NCBI GenBank assembly: GCA_035561135.1
Contig: DATMYA010000048.1
Coordinates: 62,001 to 126,000 of the forward strand
Direction of reading: 5' to 3'
Source: Clostridia bacterium
GTDB lineage: Bacteria; Acidobacteriota; Terriglobia; Terriglobales; Acidobacteriaceae
Length of the DNA: 64,000 nucleotides
Shown here piece by piece: positions 1,035 through 8,409 of the stretch (its first letter is position 1; each line of letters starts with the position of its first letter). Position numbers and translations under genes: made by a program. The notes below the pieces were generated by a model. It was not told the origin of the DNA. It made no database searches and saw nothing but the letters and a program-made list of their open reading frames with translations.

Positions 1035-1057
1035 GAAACTCGCTGAGGCAACCCAGC

Positions 1058-2740
1058 TCAGTAGCTCAGTGGTTCAGCAGCCAGCTCGACATTCTGTGCG
1101 TTGTAGATGCGTTCGCAGATGGCGCGATACTGCATGTATTGATTGTGAAGCAGCGGTTCTTCGATCGTACCTCCCATGGCTTTCGCCGCCATCTTCATGT
1201 AAGCGCATCGGAAAATTCCGTATGCGAGGAGATACGCTTTCAGGCGCGGACGCGGGTCGTCCCCGGAAATGTTTTTGTATCGCGCGAGAAATGTTTCGGT
1301 AGCTGCGCTCCCAAGGCCCCATTCGACGATGGTGCCGGCGAGGTCCCATGCGATGTCGCAAGGGCCGGGAAAGAAGTGATCGTCACCGTGCGTAGCAGCG
1401 TCGAGTTTGAGCGCCTCCCCGCTACTGGTCAGGAACCACTTGTGCGGCAACATGCGACCGTCGGCCACGACCGGGCGCGCCAGTTGGAGCAGAGCTTCTT
1501 CGCCGAGCTCAATTCCGAATTCCGTCTTCCAGTCGAAGCGAAGCATACGTTCGAGATCCGATGGCTGTTCGGCTTCCGGATGGATGGCGCACGCTCGAAA
1601 CGCGCAGTAGTCGGCCATTCGCTGAAGAATCGTGTTCGATAGATCGCTATGGAGCGCAGGGCGTCCGCTGAGGTACTGGTAACAGCCAAAACCAGCGAAG
1701 TTGCCGAAGTAGCCGGGCGCAAATCGTGCGAGAGCGAGTTGCGCGGACCGCCGCCCTACCTCCGCGCCATACCGGCCATATCCTTCGAACCGAAAGATGC
1801 GTTGCCGATCGGCGGAGAGAAATTTGAGCGGCTCCATTTGAGTCCATGAGCCAGGCTGCGAATCGGCTGGAAGGAAGTGCTTCCTCCATGCTCCACCGCC
1901 AAGTGGAGTCCCCGCACCTTCCGGCAGATAGCGCTCGTCGGAGGTGAAGAATGAGCGAAAGCGCGCCCACCGAACCGCCGCGTCGGACGCGCGCAGAGCG
2001 CCCGGATCGGGCTGGCGTGTGCCGAGGAACGTAATCTTCGCTTCATCGACGCCAGCGCCAAGGAGAGCTTCGCCCGTGGCGAGAAACGATGATCCGCTGA
2101 GGCCTGGTCCCTCATCGACGATCAGGAAATCTGAAGAACGAAGTTCATTCACCCACGCTAACTGCTGAGCGGAAAACTTCAGCTCCCGATTGTATGGGTG
2201 GCCGCTGGGCCTCACGGTAATGCGTTCTGCTTCAATCCCCTGACGCCGAAGTGCCGCAAGCACAACCGCGCTGAGCGTGGTTCCAATGCTGCGAATTCCG
2301 ACAACTCCGGCCGTTTGCGAACGGTGATTGCAATCGTTATGCCGATGCGTCAGTTCCAGACGCGAGACAAGATCGGCGAACTTGAGCGGGTTCAGCGCAT
2401 AGTATGCGAAGCTCTCGGGGATGGAAACCCGGACAGTGCCGCACAACTCGATACTTGCAAGTTGCTGTCGCAGTACTTCGGACCGGGCAATGCTGGAACC
2501 GATGAGCGCGGCGGCGAGCGCGTCGGTAATCGCCGCGGCAACGGGGACGTGGATGGAATCAGCGTCGGACAAGGCACATTCCAGTTCACCGGCCCAGAGA
2601 ATCGCATCGAGCAGATGCTCGCGATCGCAGCACGACGCGAGCGCCTGCAAGGACATCGCAAGACCTGCGACCAGCCACTTACCTGTAACGAGCTTCCGCC
2701 CGTCGCGGAAGACCCACATGTTCCAGCCCGAGTTGTCCAT
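1058..2740 (-). CDS. Uncharacterised phosphoribosyltransferase-like / phosphotransferase-like fusion protein
   Basis: A 560-aa protein I cannot name. The N-terminal half carries a PRTase-type core: VGIRSIGTTLSAVV resembles the pyrophosphate loop, and FLIVDEGPGLSGSSF (about residues 205-219) resembles a PRPP-binding loop (usual form VDDxxxTGxT), here with Glu and Ser replacing typical residues. The C-terminal third has DGRMLPHKW and KLDAATHGDDHFFPGPCDIAWDLAG, reminiscent of the catalytic and metal-binding loops of aminoglycoside-phosphotransferase-like kinases. There is no signal peptide or membrane segment. It starts 21 bp after the small YFID-repeat gene, so the two are probably co-transcribed. 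Function is unknown and the domain assignment is inference from motifs. Confidence 0.75.
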   Translation of the reverse strand: MDNSGWNMWVFRDGRKLVTGKWLVAGLAMSLQALASCCDREHLLDAILWAGELECALSDADSIHVPVAAAITDALAAALIGSSIARSEVLRQQLASIELCGTVRVSIPESFAYYALNPLKFADLVSRLELTHRHNDCNHRSQTAGVVGIRSIGTTLSAVVLAALRRQGIEAERITVRPSGHPYNRELKFSAQQLAWVNELRSSDFLIVDEGPGLSGSSFLATGEALLGAGVDEAKITFLGTRQPDPGALRASDAAVRWARFRSFFTSDERYLPEGAGTPLGGGAWRKHFLPADSQPGSWTQMEPLKFLSADRQRIFRFEGYGRYGAEVGRRSAQLALARFAPGYFGNFAGFGCYQYLSGRPALHSDLSNTILQRMADYCAFRACAIHPEAEQPSDLERMLRFDWKTEFGIELGEEALLQLARPVVADGRMLPHKWFLTSSGEALKLDAATHGDDHFFPGPCDIAWDLAGTIVEWGLGSAATETFLARYKNISGDDPRPRLKAYLLAYGIFRCAYMKMAAKAMGGTIEEPLLHNQYMQYRAICERIYNAQNVELAAEPLSY

Positions 2741-2761
2741 GTTGTCAGTCGAGAACGTGCA

Positions 2762-2986
2762 TCAGGCGGCACGCTTCTTTGTGCCACGCGGAGAGCGAGA
2801 CACGTCGCCATCTTTGTCGATGAAATATAGGAATTGGTTGTCGCGCTCGACGGCATTCTCGACCAAAACTTTGGAGTCGCCTTTGCCTGACTTCGGCTTC
2901 TGGCAAACGTTGCCGTTTCCGTCGATGAAATAGAGAAAGGTCTTATAGTCCCGCTGGAGGTTCAGCTTTTTAACTTTTTCGGCCAT
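2762..2986 (-). CDS. Small protein with tandem YFID repeats
   Basis: A 74-aa basic protein starting MAEKVKKLNLQRDYK; the ATG at 2986 is preceded by a strong Shine-Dalgarno (GGAGGGG), so the longer upstream frame is rejected. It contains two copies of an FLYFID-x-x-G-(N/D)-V unit, at about residues 17-27 and 52-62, each followed by a Pro/Lys/Gly-rich stretch. The family is not recognised; the Asp/Gly/Asn loops could be beta-hairpins or weak cation sites. It sits 21 bp ahead of the PRTase/kinase-like gene on the same strand, which suggests a two-gene unit. Confidence 0.7.
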   Translation of the reverse strand: MAEKVKKLNLQRDYKTFLYFIDGNGNVCQKPKSGKGDSKVLVENAVERDNQFLYFIDKDGDVSRSPRGTKKRAA

Positions 2987-3236: not shown

Positions 3237-4373
3237 CTAGCGGCGGCGCTTACGTACGGACTTGGAAGTGCTCGCTTTATCTTTCGTAGCCTTGGTCGAA
3301 GCAAGCTTCCGCTCCTCTTCGCCGGGGGCGAGTACACGTTTGACGATAGGACCGTTCAGCTTGTACTTGCGCTCTGCGACTGAGCCATCCTCGTTCTTGG
3401 CATGCACGGTGAAGGTGGGCAGCATGCCTTCTTTTTCGAAGTTCTCGGTGCTGGTGGTAACCGGAAACAAGCCGAAGAGGTTGCGTTCGCGGTAAGCAGT
3501 CTCGTACCGATGCTTTCTTACGTTCCAGGTGAAGATGCGAACCTGGTTGAAGTCGAAAGGCATTCCGTCTTTGTTCTCGGAAAAGAGAACGACGTACTGC
3601 GGCACCTGCTTCTCCGCGTCTTGAACGACGTTGAGGATGAAGGCAGCCTGGATGCGCTGGCCTTCCGAATACTGCGCAATCTCGAGCGGCACGTCGAGGT
3701 CTATCATGCGCGCTAACACCCAACCGACGTTCCCCTGCGCATTGCGCACGAGCCAGAAGTCGTCGTACAGCTTGGGCGCTGCCGGTGGTTCGCGATCTGG
3801 CTGCCCGTTTTCTCCTCCACTGCTTGCAGTATTGCCGGCGACTGGTTTTATTGCAGGCCTGGCGACCGGCAGTTTGGATTTGCGCTCGGTTGTGGCGCGC
3901 CGCAGAACTTCTACTTTTTCGCCTTCGGCGAGTTGATAAAGTTTCTGGGTGTCGCGCCCAACGCTCATATGCATATTGAGTTCGGCGCGGGCGGAGCCGT
4001 GTCCCTGCAGAGGCGTGGCGCGATTTTCCTCAGCAAGCTTCTGGAAAGTGTTGAAGACGTCTTCGCCAACCAGGTAGCGTTGTTCCATCCAGCCTTCTTC
4101 ACCACGCGCAGTGCGCACGCGGACAAAGCGCTTCTGACGGTCCAGTATCTCGACCTTGTCGCCGTTCTTAACGATCGCTATCTTGTTGTAAAGCGCGGCG
4201 ACCCGATCACGCAGGTTGACCTGCGGCGCAGCGACGTATGCAACTTCATTCGAACGTAGCGGACCACTTTTACAGGCGGCGAGCGACAGGAGAAGTGCAC
4301 CGAAAAGGATGAGGCAAAAGCGCGCGGTGAGGCGCGACCAGGAACGGACGCCAGTTGCGAAAGGGGATTTCAC
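3237..4373 (-). CDS. SH3-repeat lipoprotein
   Basis: About 378 aa from the GTG at 4373, chosen because it gives a good lipoprotein signal: basic N-terminus, hydrophobic core and lipobox LAAC followed by Lys-Ser-Gly. A longer frame from the ATG at 4457 is possible. Two bacterial SH3-type domains follow: one at about residues 42-100 (NLRDRVAAL...GDKVEIL...EEGWMEQRYLV) and one around 125-225 (MSVGRDTQKLYQLAEGEKVEVL...WLVRNAQGNVGWVLARMI). The second is interrupted by a Pro/Ser-rich linker. The C-terminal part (YVVLFSENKDGMPFDFNQVRIFTWN) is of unknown type and the tail is Lys/Arg-rich. Such proteins usually sit at the cell envelope, where SH3 domains bind peptidoglycan. Confidence 0.8.
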   Translation of the reverse strand: MKSPFATGVRSWSRLTARFCLILFGALLLSLAACKSGPLRSNEVAYVAAPQVNLRDRVAALYNKIAIVKNGDKVEILDRQKRFVRVRTARGEEGWMEQRYLVGEDVFNTFQKLAEENRATPLQGHGSARAELNMHMSVGRDTQKLYQLAEGEKVEVLRRATTERKSKLPVARPAIKPVAGNTASSGGENGQPDREPPAAPKLYDDFWLVRNAQGNVGWVLARMIDLDVPLEIAQYSEGQRIQAAFILNVVQDAEKQVPQYVVLFSENKDGMPFDFNQVRIFTWNVRKHRYETAYRERNLFGLFPVTTSTENFEKEGMLPTFTVHAKNEDGSVAERKYKLNGPIVKRVLAPGEEERKLASTKATKDKASTSKSVRKRRR

Positions 4374-4494
4374 GGCTACGACAAGAATATACCGGACAGA
4401 CCACAAATGACGGAATAGAAGAACTACACTAGTCCGGGCGCTGATTGAGCCGTTCATTCGCTAAGGCGTAACTGAACCGAGGCGGAGACAAATC

Positions 4495-4732: not shown

Positions 4733-5863
4733 TTGGCTATTGCTGTCGATACAAAGGCATCGCTGAGCGATGCATCGTGCTCCTTGGACAACTACCTGAT
4801 TCTCCCGGATCACTCGATGGATGCGCGCATCCTTGCGGCCAGGGAGAAACTCGGCGGCGAGTGTGTCGTTCTGGGGCATCACTATCAACGCGACGAGGTC
4901 ATTCGCTTCTCCGACATACAGGGCGATTCATACCGGCTGTCGCAGCAGGCCGCGCGCGCGCAGGGGCGCTACATCGTCTTCTGCGGAGTGCACTTCATGG
5001 CGGAGAGCGCCGATGTGCTGGCGCGTCCGGGACAGGTCGTAGTGCTGCCAGACCTGAATGCCGGCTGCTCGATGGCCGACATGGCAGATGTCTCGCAGGT
5101 GGAAGACTGCTGGGACCAGTTAGTGTCGCTCGGAATCACCACGGAGGATGGGCAAGGCATCACGCCGATCACGTACATGAATTCGACGGCTGCCATCAAG
5201 GCTTTCTGCGGCGAACGCGGCGGAGTGGTATGCACGTCCTCCAATGCGCGCGGTGCTTTCGATTGGGCACTGACGAAAAATGAAAAGATCCTCTTCATGC
5301 CGGACCAGCACCTCGGACGCAACACGGGCTGCGCAATGGGAATTCCGCTCGACGACATGGTGGTTTGGGATCCGTACATGTTACAGGGCGGGCAGACGGC
5401 GGAAAGACTTCGCAAAGCGAAAGTGATCCTCTGGAAGGGCCACTGCTCGGTGCATCAACGCTTCCTGCCGGAACACGTTGACAACGTCCGCGCGAAGAAT
5501 CCGGCAATCAAGGTAATTGTGCACCCGGAATGTCGATGGGAAGTGTGCCAGAAGGCCGACGACATCGGATCGACGGATAAGCTGCGCAAAATAGTGCGCG
5601 AATCTCCGGCAGGCGCGGCTTTCGCAATCGGCACTGAGATTCATCTCGTGAACCGGCTTGCCAAAGAGAATCCCGACAAGCAGATCATCACCCTCGATGA
5701 TTCAGGTTGCCTGTGCACCACGATGTATCGCATCTCTCCGCAGCACCTATGCTGGGCCCTGGAGAATTTAGTGGGCGGGAACGTGGTAAACCAGATCAAA
5801 GTGAGCGATGACGTAAAGCACTGGGCACAAGTTGCACTCGGCCGAATGCTGGAAATCCAGTAA
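4733..5863 (+). CDS. nadA: Quinolinate synthase NadA
   Basis: A 376-aa protein that condenses iminoaspartate with dihydroxyacetone phosphate to quinolinate, in the de novo NAD pathway. Family features: VLGHHYQRDEV near the N-terminus, the repeated substrate-loop residues, FCGVHFMAESADVL, PGCSMADMA-like NAGCSMADMA, HPECRWEVC and DSGCLCTTMYR. Three of the Cys would ligate the [4Fe-4S] cluster (in FCGV, HPEC and the DSGC region). The start is the TTG at 4733; the next in-frame ATG is at 4818, which would cut conserved N-terminal sequence. nadB and nadC are not in the window. DUF2203 follows 73 bp later. Confidence 0.95.
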   Translation: MAIAVDTKASLSDASCSLDNYLILPDHSMDARILAAREKLGGECVVLGHHYQRDEVIRFSDIQGDSYRLSQQAARAQGRYIVFCGVHFMAESADVLARPGQVVVLPDLNAGCSMADMADVSQVEDCWDQLVSLGITTEDGQGITPITYMNSTAAIKAFCGERGGVVCTSSNARGAFDWALTKNEKILFMPDQHLGRNTGCAMGIPLDDMVVWDPYMLQGGQTAERLRKAKVILWKGHCSVHQRFLPEHVDNVRAKNPAIKVIVHPECRWEVCQKADDIGSTDKLRKIVRESPAGAAFAIGTEIHLVNRLAKENPDKQIITLDDSGCLCTTMYRISPQHLCWALENLVGGNVVNQIKVSDDVKHWAQVALGRMLEIQ

Positions 5864-5936
5864 TAAACTTCCGGCAACAAACGTCCTGGCGCTTCGGCGG
5901 CACGGCCGGTTACGCGTTAGAATAAATCTACATCGC

Positions 5937-6377
5937 ATGCCGGAACGGACATTCACATATAACGAAGCTCTGTCGCTGCTACCCATACTGGAGTCCTTGC
6001 TGCGCACCTCGATCGAAAGCAAGCAGACCATAGAGGAAATCGATGCCGAGTTCACCCAGGTGAACGAGCGCATCCTGATGGCCGGTGGAATGCTGCTGGA
6101 CGTTGAGCGCTATGCGCGGCGGAAAGCCGAACGGCACAAGGCCATTCGGCGGGCCAAGGATGCGCTGGCAGAAATCCACGCCATGGGCGTGCAGGTCAAG
6201 GATCTCGACATAGGACTCTTGGACTTCCCCTGCGTGGTGGGCGAGGAAGTTGTCCTGCTGTGCTGGAAAATGGGTGAGACCGGCATTACACATTGGCATG
6301 GCACGGACGAAGGATTTTCCGCGCGCAAACCGATTGACGAACGCATCTCGCGCGCAGGCGGTGGGCGCACGAACTAA
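5937..6377 (+). CDS. DUF2203 family protein
   Basis: 146 aa from the ATG at 5937 (MPERTFTYNEA). An upstream in-frame extension would overlap nadA and has no family similarity. The pattern, with a helical N-terminal region (NEALSLLPILESLLR), an internal Lys/Arg-rich helix, VQVKDLDIGLLDFP and LLCWKMGETGITHWHGTDEGFSARKPI, is characteristic of DUF2203 (PF09969). The family has no known function. A rho-independent terminator follows the stop by 19 bp, and the 73-bp gap to nadA suggests read-through from that promoter. Confidence 0.85.
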   Translation: MPERTFTYNEALSLLPILESLLRTSIESKQTIEEIDAEFTQVNERILMAGGMLLDVERYARRKAERHKAIRRAKDALAEIHAMGVQVKDLDIGLLDFPCVVGEEVVLLCWKMGETGITHWHGTDEGFSARKPIDERISRAGGGRTN

Positions 6378-6396
6378 GTCTCGTCCGGCAACTCGC

Positions 6397-6423
6397 GGCG
6401 CCCAGGTGGCGCCTTTTGTTTTG
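6397..6423 (+). terminator. Rho-independent terminator after the DUF2203 gene
   Basis: GGCGCC (6397-6402), a 5-nt loop, then GGCGCC (6408-6413), followed directly by TTTTGTTTTG. A GC-rich stem plus T-run 20 bp after the stop at 6377 fits an intrinsic terminator on the plus strand. Confidence 0.75.
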
Positions 6424-6555
6424 TCCGCCGAAAGACAATTGCTTCGCATTCGGGCGCGCCGGTTCGGCCGCGAAAAAATGAGAGTTGCCCTATTTTGTTA
6501 AAATCCTCGCGTTGCGCTGCGAGATGGCAATTGGGTGCGGCGCGGGGGGGGTGTG

Positions 6556-7200
6556 ATGTTTTCGAGCTTCCGTACCACGGGCGGCCTTTTCCGTAGTTCT
6601 TCGATGGCATGCGTGTTGGTGGTCCTGCTCGGATTGCTCGCCTGCGACGACTTCTTCCCTTCCGAGCGGTCGCTTGACCACATCGACGTGGCACCACTGA
6701 ATCGATTCCTGAAAACTGCCGAAACGCAGCAGATGACCGCGACTGGCGTATTGGGAAATGGCGAATCGAGCGACCTGACAAGCTCGGCAACATGGACGAG
6801 TTCGGATACGAACATCGCAAGCGTCAGCGCCAGCGGTCTTGTCACGGCAAATGCCGCGGGCTCGACGACAATCACAGCGGCTTCCGGCAGCACTACCGGG
6901 TCGACGCTGGTGAACGTATTCGCGAGCACCCTCCAGAGCATTCAGATCACGCCCAATAATCCGGCAATCGGCGTAAGTGCCACGCAGCAATTCACTGCTA
7001 CCGGCACATTCCAGGACAACTCCACGCAAAACATCTCGACACTTGTGACCTGGAGCTCCTCGGACACAGCCATCGCAACCATCAGCAGTTCCGGTCTTGC
7101 CACGGCCGTTGCAACGGGCACGAGCACGATCACGGCGACGGCCAGCAATGCTTCCGGACAGGTTACCGGGACCGTTACGCTGACGGTGAACTCCTTCTAA
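6556..7200 (+). CDS. Lipoprotein with two Big2 Ig-like domains
   Basis: 214 aa from the ATG at 6556, which follows a G-run that can serve as ribosome-binding site; a GTG seven codons earlier is an alternative. The N-terminus has a hydrophobic segment ending in LGLLAC, a lipobox. Two bacterial Ig-like group 2 domains follow, about residues 45-125 and 130-214. They are recognisable by the repeated T(S/W)SSSDT-(N/A)-IA-(S/T)-(V/I)-S and SSGLVT/AT-AxGTSTITA patterns. It has no catalytic domain and is probably an exported surface or adhesion-type protein. Ser/Thr-rich composition differs from its cytoplasmic neighbours. Confidence 0.85.
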   Translation: MFSSFRTTGGLFRSSSMACVLVVLLGLLACDDFFPSERSLDHIDVAPLNRFLKTAETQQMTATGVLGNGESSDLTSSATWTSSDTNIASVSASGLVTANAAGSTTITAASGSTTGSTLVNVFASTLQSIQITPNNPAIGVSATQQFTATGTFQDNSTQNISTLVTWSSSDTAIATISSSGLATAVATGTSTITATASNASGQVTGTVTLTVNSF

Positions 7201-7305
7201 CGGGGCACCCCGGCTCGGCGTTTGGGCATGACAACGTCGGCACTTTGTTATGATCGCCTGCTCGTCGCGGGTTTTCCACACCCGCCTGTACGCCAGCACT
7301 CATCT

Positions 7306-8409
7306 ATGACAGAAATTCGGAAGATTGGAATTTGCACGGGCGGTGGCGATTGCCCAGGGCTGAACGCGGTAATCCGCGCCGCCGTCAAGACCGCCATCCT
7401 GAAGTACCGCTGGCAAGTGATCGGCATACGCGATGGCTTCGATGGGCTGATCTGGCCGGAGAAGGTGCAACCGCTCAGCCTGCAGGACGTGAGCGAAATC
7501 CTGCCCAGGGGCGGGACAATCCTGGGGACAACGAACCGCGGCAACCCGTTCGCCTACAAACTCGATTCGGACGGCGGCACAGAGACAGTACGCGACTTTT
7601 CCGACGACGTGATCCGCAACGCAAAAGCACTCGGACTGGATTGCCTGATTGTCATCGGCGGCGATGGAACTCAGAGAATCGGCCTGGAGCTTTCGCAAAA
7701 AGGACTGAAGGTGGTGGGCGTACCGAAGACGATCGACAACGATCTCTCGGCAACGGAGATCACGTTCGGGTTCGACACGGCGCTGCACACGGCAACGGAC
7801 GCGATCGACAAAATCCATACCACGGCTGAATCGCACCACCGCGTGATGATCGTTGAGGTGATGGGACGCGACGCGGGGTGGATCGCTCTAGAGGCCGGCA
7901 TCGCCGGTGGCACGCACGTTATCCTGATTCCAGAAATTCCGTTCTCTATCCAGAAGATCTGCGACCACATCCAGCAGCGAAGTATCTTCGGGAGGAAGTT
8001 CACAATCATCTGCATCGCGGAAGGCGTGAAAATTCCGGAAGACTTGAAGGCGCGCTTCGAAGAAGAAAAACGCCAGTTCTCGCGTGCAGGTGCAGTCGGA
8101 AACCTGATCGGCGACGCTATCGCGAAGTGCTCGCGAAAGGAAGTACGCGTCACCGTGCTGGGACATGTGCAGCGCGGCGGATCGCCCTCACCCTTCGACC
8201 GCATCCTGAGCACTCGGTTTGGCGTCGCGGCCGTGGACCTGATCGCCAAAGGCGGCTTTGGAAAAATGGTCGCCTTGCGAGATGCGAAAGTGCGAGCCGT
8301 GGACATCGCCGAGGCGATCGGCCGGATGAAGATCGTGGACCCGAACGGCGAGATGGTGCAAACCGCAAAGTCCATCGGCATCAACTTCGGCGACGGAACC
8401 ACGTTCTAG
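7306..8409 (+). CDS. pfkA: 6-phosphofructokinase (ATP-type, group III)
   Basis: 367 aa from the ATG at 7306 (MTEIRKIGICTGGGDCPG). It phosphorylates fructose 6-phosphate in glycolysis. Conserved segments: GGGDCPGLN (nucleotide loop), LGTTNRGNPF, VIGGDGT with Gly121, PKTIDND with Lys141, EVMGRDAGWIA and LGHVQRGGSPSPFDR. Gly in GGDGT marks ATP rather than PPi as donor. Lys in PKTIDND (Gly in E. coli PfkA) places it with the mixed group III enzymes known from actinobacteria and relatives, which can lack the usual allosteric control. It faces moaA tail to tail. Confidence 0.93.
   Translation: MTEIRKIGICTGGGDCPGLNAVIRAAVKTAILKYRWQVIGIRDGFDGLIWPEKVQPLSLQDVSEILPRGGTILGTTNRGNPFAYKLDSDGGTETVRDFSDDVIRNAKALGLDCLIVIGGDGTQRIGLELSQKGLKVVGVPKTIDNDLSATEITFGFDTALHTATDAIDKIHTTAESHHRVMIVEVMGRDAGWIALEAGIAGGTHVILIPEIPFSIQKICDHIQQRSIFGRKFTIICIAEGVKIPEDLKARFEEEKRQFSRAGAVGNLIGDAIAKCSRKEVRVTVLGHVQRGGSPSPFDRILSTRFGVAAVDLIAKGGFGKMVALRDAKVRAVDIAEAIGRMKIVDPNGEMVQTAKSIGINFGDGTTF

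Follow-up and report, generated by a model that had tools for sequence, protein, structure and literature searches.

A widespread phosphoribosyltransferase-like and kinase-fold fusion protein, paired in some Acidobacteriota with a small repeat protein

The window, i.e. the whole stretch of 64,000 nucleotides that was analysed, contains two adjacent genes encoding a 74-residue protein (SML) and a 560-residue protein (BIG). The analysis confirmed that BIG is composed of a phosphoribosyltransferase (PRT)-type domain joined to an aminoglycoside/choline-kinase-type fold. We tentatively propose that BIG is a PRPP-dependent phosphoribosyltransferase of a new architecture, acting on a sugar-containing acceptor, and we hold this reading to be plausible, if somewhat short of probable. 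It is put forward because the domain anatomy and the recurring phosphatase partner fit a published two-step logic of glycan ribosylation. Both the fold components and the proposed reaction type are already known. The fusion itself, the altered kinase loop and the breadth of the family appear to be undescribed in the libraries and literature searched.

BIG matched no Pfam or NCBIfam family in a curated profile search, and the PF00156 (Pribosyltran) profile found neither BIG nor any of its 65 homologues. At least 352 relatives were recovered when 84,980 species genomes were scanned; the best 80 come from Acidobacteriota, Myxococcota (Sorangium cellulosum among them), Gemmatimonadota, Nitrospirota, Fibrobacter, Bacteroidota/Ignavibacteria, Planctomycetota, Deltaproteobacteria and Arenibaculum. 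The AlphaFold2 (AF2) model of BIG, for which 66 homologues served as input, reached a pLDDT of 93.7 and a pTM of 0.93.

The gene pair and its surroundings

Both genes lie on the minus strand, SML upstream, with 21 bp between the SML stop codon and the BIG start codon; the coordinates were checked and agree with the two open reading frames (74 and 560 aa) and the spacing reported in the first-pass annotation. SML differs from nine homologues at 16/10/56% of codon positions 1/2/3, and is therefore a genuine protein-coding gene. Terminator-like matches numbered 5, compared with 2.8 expected in shuffled sequences, so the hairpin following BIG is weakly supported. The features of both genes and proteins are collected in Table 1.

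Directly upstream of the pair (window positions 3237-4457, minus strand) is a gene for an SH3-domain protein with a lipoprotein-like start, which is kept in many genomes of the same family. Bcs3 of Hib holds its polymer via an SH3b domain, and the parallel with this protein may be a coincidence. Positions 4733-8409 (plus strand), read by eye, encode NadA, a DUF2203-like protein, an Ig-like protein and phosphofructokinase, in that order, which is partly retained in three relatives (loci L040, L049 and L050). Hfq- and HflX-like genes come next in several relatives (L040, L042 and L048).

Table 1. Positions of the genes, domains and motifs (window coordinates unless a locus is named)
Feature	Residues	Position	Strand	Basis or remark
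SML, 74-aa small "YFID" protein		2762..2986 (incl. stop)	-	ORF, homologues, codon pattern, AF2
SML repeat unit 1	3-32	2891..2980	-	internal duplication, shift 35
SML repeat unit 2	38-67	2786..2875	-	internal duplication, shift 35
BIG, 560-aa PRT-like/kinase-fold fusion		1058..2740 (incl. stop)	-	ORF, homologues, AF2
N-terminal helical bundle of BIG	20-98	2447..2683	-	AF2 secondary structure
PRT-like domain of BIG	100-265	1946..2443	-	hhalign match with the PRT part of three-domain relatives
PPi-type loop, GIRSIGTTL	148-156	2273..2299	-	role by analogy with APRT GIEARGFIFG
Flexible-loop-type segment, RPSGHPYNR	177-185	2186..2212	-	putative role
PRPP loop, DEGPGLSGSS	209-218	2087..2116	-	conservation in 66 sequences
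Choline-kinase/APH-fold domain of BIG	266-553	1082..1945	-	VIA-align, Foldseek, profile match
Altered kinase catalytic loop, DGRMLPHKW	427-435	1436..1462	-	conservation, motif and strand positions
K445-x-D447, equivalent of the DFG/IDF metal-binding Asp	445-447	1400..1408	-	position by motif and AF2 strands
Terminator-like hairpin		1042..1057	-	directly 3' of the BIG stop codon; consensus scan only
Three-domain relatives of BIG		L035:7969-10848, L036:4572-7535, L037:6692-9577		one of them adjoins a GT4 glycosyltransferase

The phosphoribosyltransferase-like domain

Three remote relatives of BIG, 960-990 aa in length, carry a PRT-like domain, a kinase-like domain and a HAD phosphatase in one chain. 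Residues 96-265 of BIG match the PRT domain of these proteins (hhalign 98%, 1.7e-13; hmmsearch 1e-12 to 1e-14). Two of the three match PF00156 at a sub-threshold level (E 1.1e-5 and 5e-4), and the three as a set match PRTs encoded in the genome itself (86.6% in a profile comparison). As the direct profile comparison of the N-terminal part of BIG with PRTs was weak (1.6%), the assignment rests on these intermediates. Through them, a PRT-type catalytic domain with PRPP-binding residues is recognized in BIG, and residues 100-265 are assigned to a type I phosphoribosyltransferase-like domain by sequence comparison.

The conservation of individual sites was scored in 66 homologous sequences from many phyla, the window protein included. 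Seven residues of the PRPP loop (D209, E210, G211, P212, G213, S215 and G216) are invariant in 66/66, as are G148, R150, G153 and L156 of the PPi-type loop and the two arginines, R177 and R185, of the flexible-loop-type segment. The first-pass annotation had regarded the PRPP loop as altered, and had taken this as a sign of binding rather than transferase activity. One residue more than in the classical loop is indeed present and constitutes the main change, but the loop retains its two acidic residues as well as the Ser and Gly residues that bind phosphate. The (near-)invariance of the PRPP loop and of the PPi-loop and flexible-loop arginines argues against a purely binding role. Given how little the PRPP loop varies among the 66 homologues, transferase activity is the better guess, and nothing in these data points to a loss of PRPP chemistry.

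BIG shares with the type I PRTs (APRT, OPRT, HPRT; PF00156) a PPi-loop-like GIRSIG, flexible-loop arginines and a PRPP loop of the form D-E plus S-G-x-S, whereas the classical enzymes have a PRPP loop shorter by one residue, are matched by Pfam and lack a fused kinase fold. In BIG the D-E pair of the PRPP loop is contiguous, unlike the acidic pair of Hib CriT, which is split between two loops in an enzyme that is nevertheless active (PMC10299916).

The kinase-fold domain

In the structural fold search of BIG, the matches were taken up by the kinase fold, and the VIA-align span covers residues 266-553. This part aligns with choline kinase 3zm9_B with a Z-score of 18.5 over 253 residues (3.8 A). 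It also matches LicA in Foldseek (E 1.6e-7), and the family profile matches LicA 4r77 with an E-value of 0.011. The first-pass annotation had described a PRTase core with an aminoglycoside-kinase-like end; the fold search and the three-domain relatives bear out this assignment, and BIG does not correspond to one ordinary enzyme fold.

The similarity to the ChoK/APH superfamily (ChoK, LicA, HSK2, CcrZ) extends over the whole domain (Z 14-18) and includes the beta-3 K/R, the DFG-type Asp (D447 in BIG) and the F-helix Asp (D466). The key residues of the kinase superfamily were taken as given in PMC1821047. The catalytic loop is different: the classical HGDxHxxNhh is replaced in BIG by D427-G-R429-M-L-P-H-K434-W435, i.e. 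HxDxxxxN by DxRxxxxE in the family. Position 429, in the place of the catalytic Asp, is occupied by Arg in 59, His in 5 and Lys in 2 sequences, and is thus basic in 66/66. Position 434, in the place of the metal-binding Asn, is Glu in 62 of the 66 and otherwise Lys or Asp, with Lys in the window protein. The flanking D427 and W435 are invariant, and the same applies to K445, D447 (second metal Asp), H451 and D466. The loop was read from the motif and the positions of the AF2 strands (423-425 and 435-438), not from superposed coordinates, because hhalign to a mixed APH set did not align it. As judged from these alignments, it is the kinase-like half, rather than the PRPP site, that appears to have lost its classical catalytic residue, the Asp.

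The small protein

SML consists of two 35-residue units, each carrying FLYFID-x-x-G-(N/D)-V. The duplication, already remarked upon in the first-pass annotation, is genuine: at a shift of 35 the units share 13 identities, and the alignment score was reached by 0 of 2000 shuffles. The AF2 model (pLDDT 89.4) shows six short beta strands. Homologues encoded beside the large gene are 54-81% identical. Searches of Pfam and NCBIfam with SML gave solely sub-threshold matches to Ntox33 and SSSPR-51, which were disregarded, and Foldseek returned nothing below E 0.6 and no solved relative, which does not prove a new fold. A relationship with the LRP6 YWTD propeller was considered and rejected, as the profile matches were weak and no single repeat was significant; the resemblance was taken as a common YxxD hairpin pattern.

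SML-type proteins are also encoded in genomes that yielded no BIG (G422, G537 and G359, the last with three loci), and they are therefore an independent small-protein family, one that has no name. These solo proteins of other Acidobacteriota resemble SML in their duplicated FLYFID-x-DGD hairpin units, their length of 70-80 aa and their basic character, but differ from it in being unlinked to a PRT-kinase protein. Examples from such genomes (L157:3898-4140, L159:3803-4144, L156:308-520 and L155:5428-5895) have duplicated YF(I/L)DxDGD units and basic tails, and one genome contains several copies.

Conservation of the pair

The survey of the pair covered 61 genomes, made up of the genome of the window and 60 relatives. 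Of these, 22 contain BIG and 12 contain SML, and all 12 genomes with SML carry BIG adjoining it. The pair spans two Acidobacteriota families with differing flanking genes. Within the family SML is better conserved (72-81% identity) than BIG (40-47%). In two loci of the named genome collection (L058 and L063) SML is found on the opposite strand and in a shifted position, yet within approximately 4 kb of BIG. The genes are thus neighbours in relatives, and the pair is conserved in these Acidobacteriota families, in agreement with the treatment of the two genes as one unit in the first-pass annotation. The unit is not, however, obligate. In the named genome collection SML accompanies BIG at 20 of 80 loci; elsewhere most BIG genes lack SML, just as SML-type proteins occur without BIG. 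In the BIG tree the SML-linked genes fall in two separated Acidobacteriota clades, and therefore the pair was either inherited and then lost, or joined repeatedly.

In six SML-lacking Acidobacteriota loci (L051, L056, L070, L080, L085 and L094) two long genes lie immediately upstream of BIG; read by eye, they encode BamA/TamA-like and TamB-like proteins.

Gene neighbourhoods of BIG

Beyond the lineage of the window, BIG belongs to a recurrent glycan cluster found across several phyla. The order NTP_transferase, PIG-L, GT4, GNAT, BIG was observed in Nitrospirota, Bacteroidota/Ignavibacteria, Fibrobacter and Deltaproteobacteria; the acyltransferase is GNAT/FemAB-like and PIG-L is a deacetylase. 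In full, the cluster comprises a CgeB-type glycosyltransferase (PF13524), NTP_transferase, a TIGR04290 methyltransferase, a glycosyl-hydrolase-like protein, PIG-L, GT4 and the acyltransferase, followed by BIG and an ABC exporter. No description of this CgeB/PIG-L/TIGR04290 cluster was found in the literature. It was seen at loci L099, L103, L104, L107, L111, L114, L115, L116, L121, L126 and L128.

A phosphatase gene is adjacent to BIG in 14 loci. In 9 of these the direct neighbour encodes a histidine phosphatase of one subfamily (family E-values of 1e-59 or better, with an RHG/RHA motif), which is also present inside the locus in several more cases. A PHP-domain gene adjoins BIG in 5 other loci, and the two types never occur in one locus. 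Fusion to a HAD phosphatase is restricted to the three remote relatives. No linked phosphatase was found in many Acidobacteriota BIG loci, and a search of 10 genomes for the phosphatase orthologue did not find it in 8, among them the window's genome and most of those with the pair. In the window's lineage the flanking genes (SH3-domain protein, aminotransferase, NadA, phosphofructokinase) do not form a glycan cluster. As no phosphatase is linked to BIG there, a general phosphatase may serve in its place, or the 5-phosphate may stay.

Proposed function

In bacterial surface glycans, ribofuranose is introduced by moving ribose-5-phosphate from PRPP, followed by dephosphorylation (PMC11127046, PMC10299916, PMC12096443, PMC11231755). 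The folds, the conservation of the PRPP-site residues, the change in the kinase loop, the glycan and phosphatase surroundings and the recurrence of the pair are computational results, whereas the catalysis of BIG, its donor and acceptor, and the roles of the kinase-like half and of SML are inferences. The N-terminal PRT-like domain would take 5-phosphoribose from PRPP and attach it to a sugar-containing acceptor during the assembly of cell-envelope glycans or glycolipids, and the 5-phosphate would then be removed by a separate or fused phosphatase of the histidine-phosphatase, PHP or HAD family. The C-terminal choline-kinase fold, with its strictly conserved pocket, might bind the acceptor or a nucleotide and not work like a standard kinase. 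The all-beta SML, encoded upstream of BIG in Acidobacteriota, could be its accessory or regulatory partner.

We prefer a role in sugar/glycan metabolism because of the gene contexts outside the window's lineage, and for the same reason it fits better than the small modification or signalling system suggested in the first-pass annotation. The statement made there that the proteins match no known pathway still stands, and no description of PRT-kinase fusions was found in the literature. The presence of BIG in an operon does not reveal which acceptor it uses.

Glycan phosphoribosyltransferases (gPRT) and their phosphatases (PRP), as in Bcs3 CriT/CrpP, Cj1432 and ORF5 of Klebsiella O4, resemble BIG in a PRT-type fold with helical additions, in the use of PRPP (predicted for BIG), in having, at a number of BIG loci, a phosphatase partner (fused as a HAD domain in the remote relatives of BIG) and in their location in glycan clusters, which holds for BIG in many other phyla but not at the window locus. 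BIG differs from them in the additional kinase-fold domain and in its partner, which, where one is linked at all, tends to be a histidine phosphatase or a PHP protein, whereas the gPRT systems use a HAD phosphatase. Neither CriT/Bcs3 nor any other solved glycan PRT was matched by BIG, the profile search of PDB sequences giving choline kinase alone at E-values up to 10; the comparison with CriT thus involves no sequence relationship in that search.

A bifunctional small-molecule enzyme is an alternative that we consider rather unlikely. Its PRT domain would ribosylate a base- or cofactor-like acceptor and its kinase, despite the rearranged loop, would be active, giving a nucleotide-like product with no link to glycans. 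The invariance of D427, K445, D447, H451 and D466, which points to the maintenance of a functional kinase-fold site, agrees with such an enzyme, as do the fold neighbours (choline, homoserine and methylthioribose kinases) and the lack of a glycan cluster in the window's lineage. CobC-type histidine phosphatases take the 5'-phosphate off ribosylated small molecules, and this chemistry also counts in its favour. On the other hand, the position of the catalytic Asp is basic in every sequence, and the contexts outside the window's lineage consist mostly of glycosyltransferase, sugar nucleotidyltransferase and exporter genes. The altered appearance of the kinase half would suit a PRPP- or nucleotide-sensing regulator, in which both domains of BIG bind without catalysis and SML, a small non-enzymatic protein, is the effector; the binding role given in the first-pass annotation is of this kind. 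Non-catalytic regulators with a PRT fold, such as PurR of Bacillus, provide a precedent. However, the residues of the PRPP, PPi and flexible loops have stayed invariant, the neighbours are biosynthetic enzymes and phosphatases with no regulators among them, and the three-domain relatives even include a fused phosphatase, so that we judge a sensor to be improbable.

It may also be that SML adjoins BIG by a lineage-specific accident and is functionally unrelated to it, which would be compatible with any reading of BIG. Solo YFID-type proteins in genomes without BIG, and the many BIG genes without SML, speak for this explanation; the constant adjacency in two families with differing flanks, and the proximity kept in the two loci where SML has changed strand and place, make it somewhat unlikely. 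Membership in a tellurite/Ter-type PRTase system, or in another anti-phage or conflict system, seems very remote. Ter-type systems do combine PRTase-like and HAD proteins, but BIG has no Pfam match to the Ter-associated PRTase (PRTase_2) or TRSP, and no Ter-type gene occurs among the annotated neighbours, so the simple form of this reading was dropped.

Our preferred reading of BIG as a phosphoribosyltransferase acting on a sugar-containing acceptor can be extended further. In this bolder version, which we regard as doubtful, BIG would represent an undescribed widespread family in which the PRT domain and a reprogrammed kinase-fold site, with Arg in place of the catalytic Asp, jointly yield an envelope glycan modified with phosphoribosyl or ribosyl, through chemistry unlike that of known ribofuranosyltransferases, with the 74-aa beta protein exerting control in Acidobacteriota.

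Implications

Neither Pfam nor NCBIfam has a name for the BIG family, although species-representative genomes contain at least 352 relatives. If BIG is a PRPP-dependent glycan phosphoribosyltransferase, it would constitute another route by which ribose enters bacterial surface sugars. The range of phosphatases that partner such enzymes would then be wider, and a kinase fold would have been repurposed beside a transferase. The same reading supplies a testable function for a conserved glycan cluster for which we found no description.
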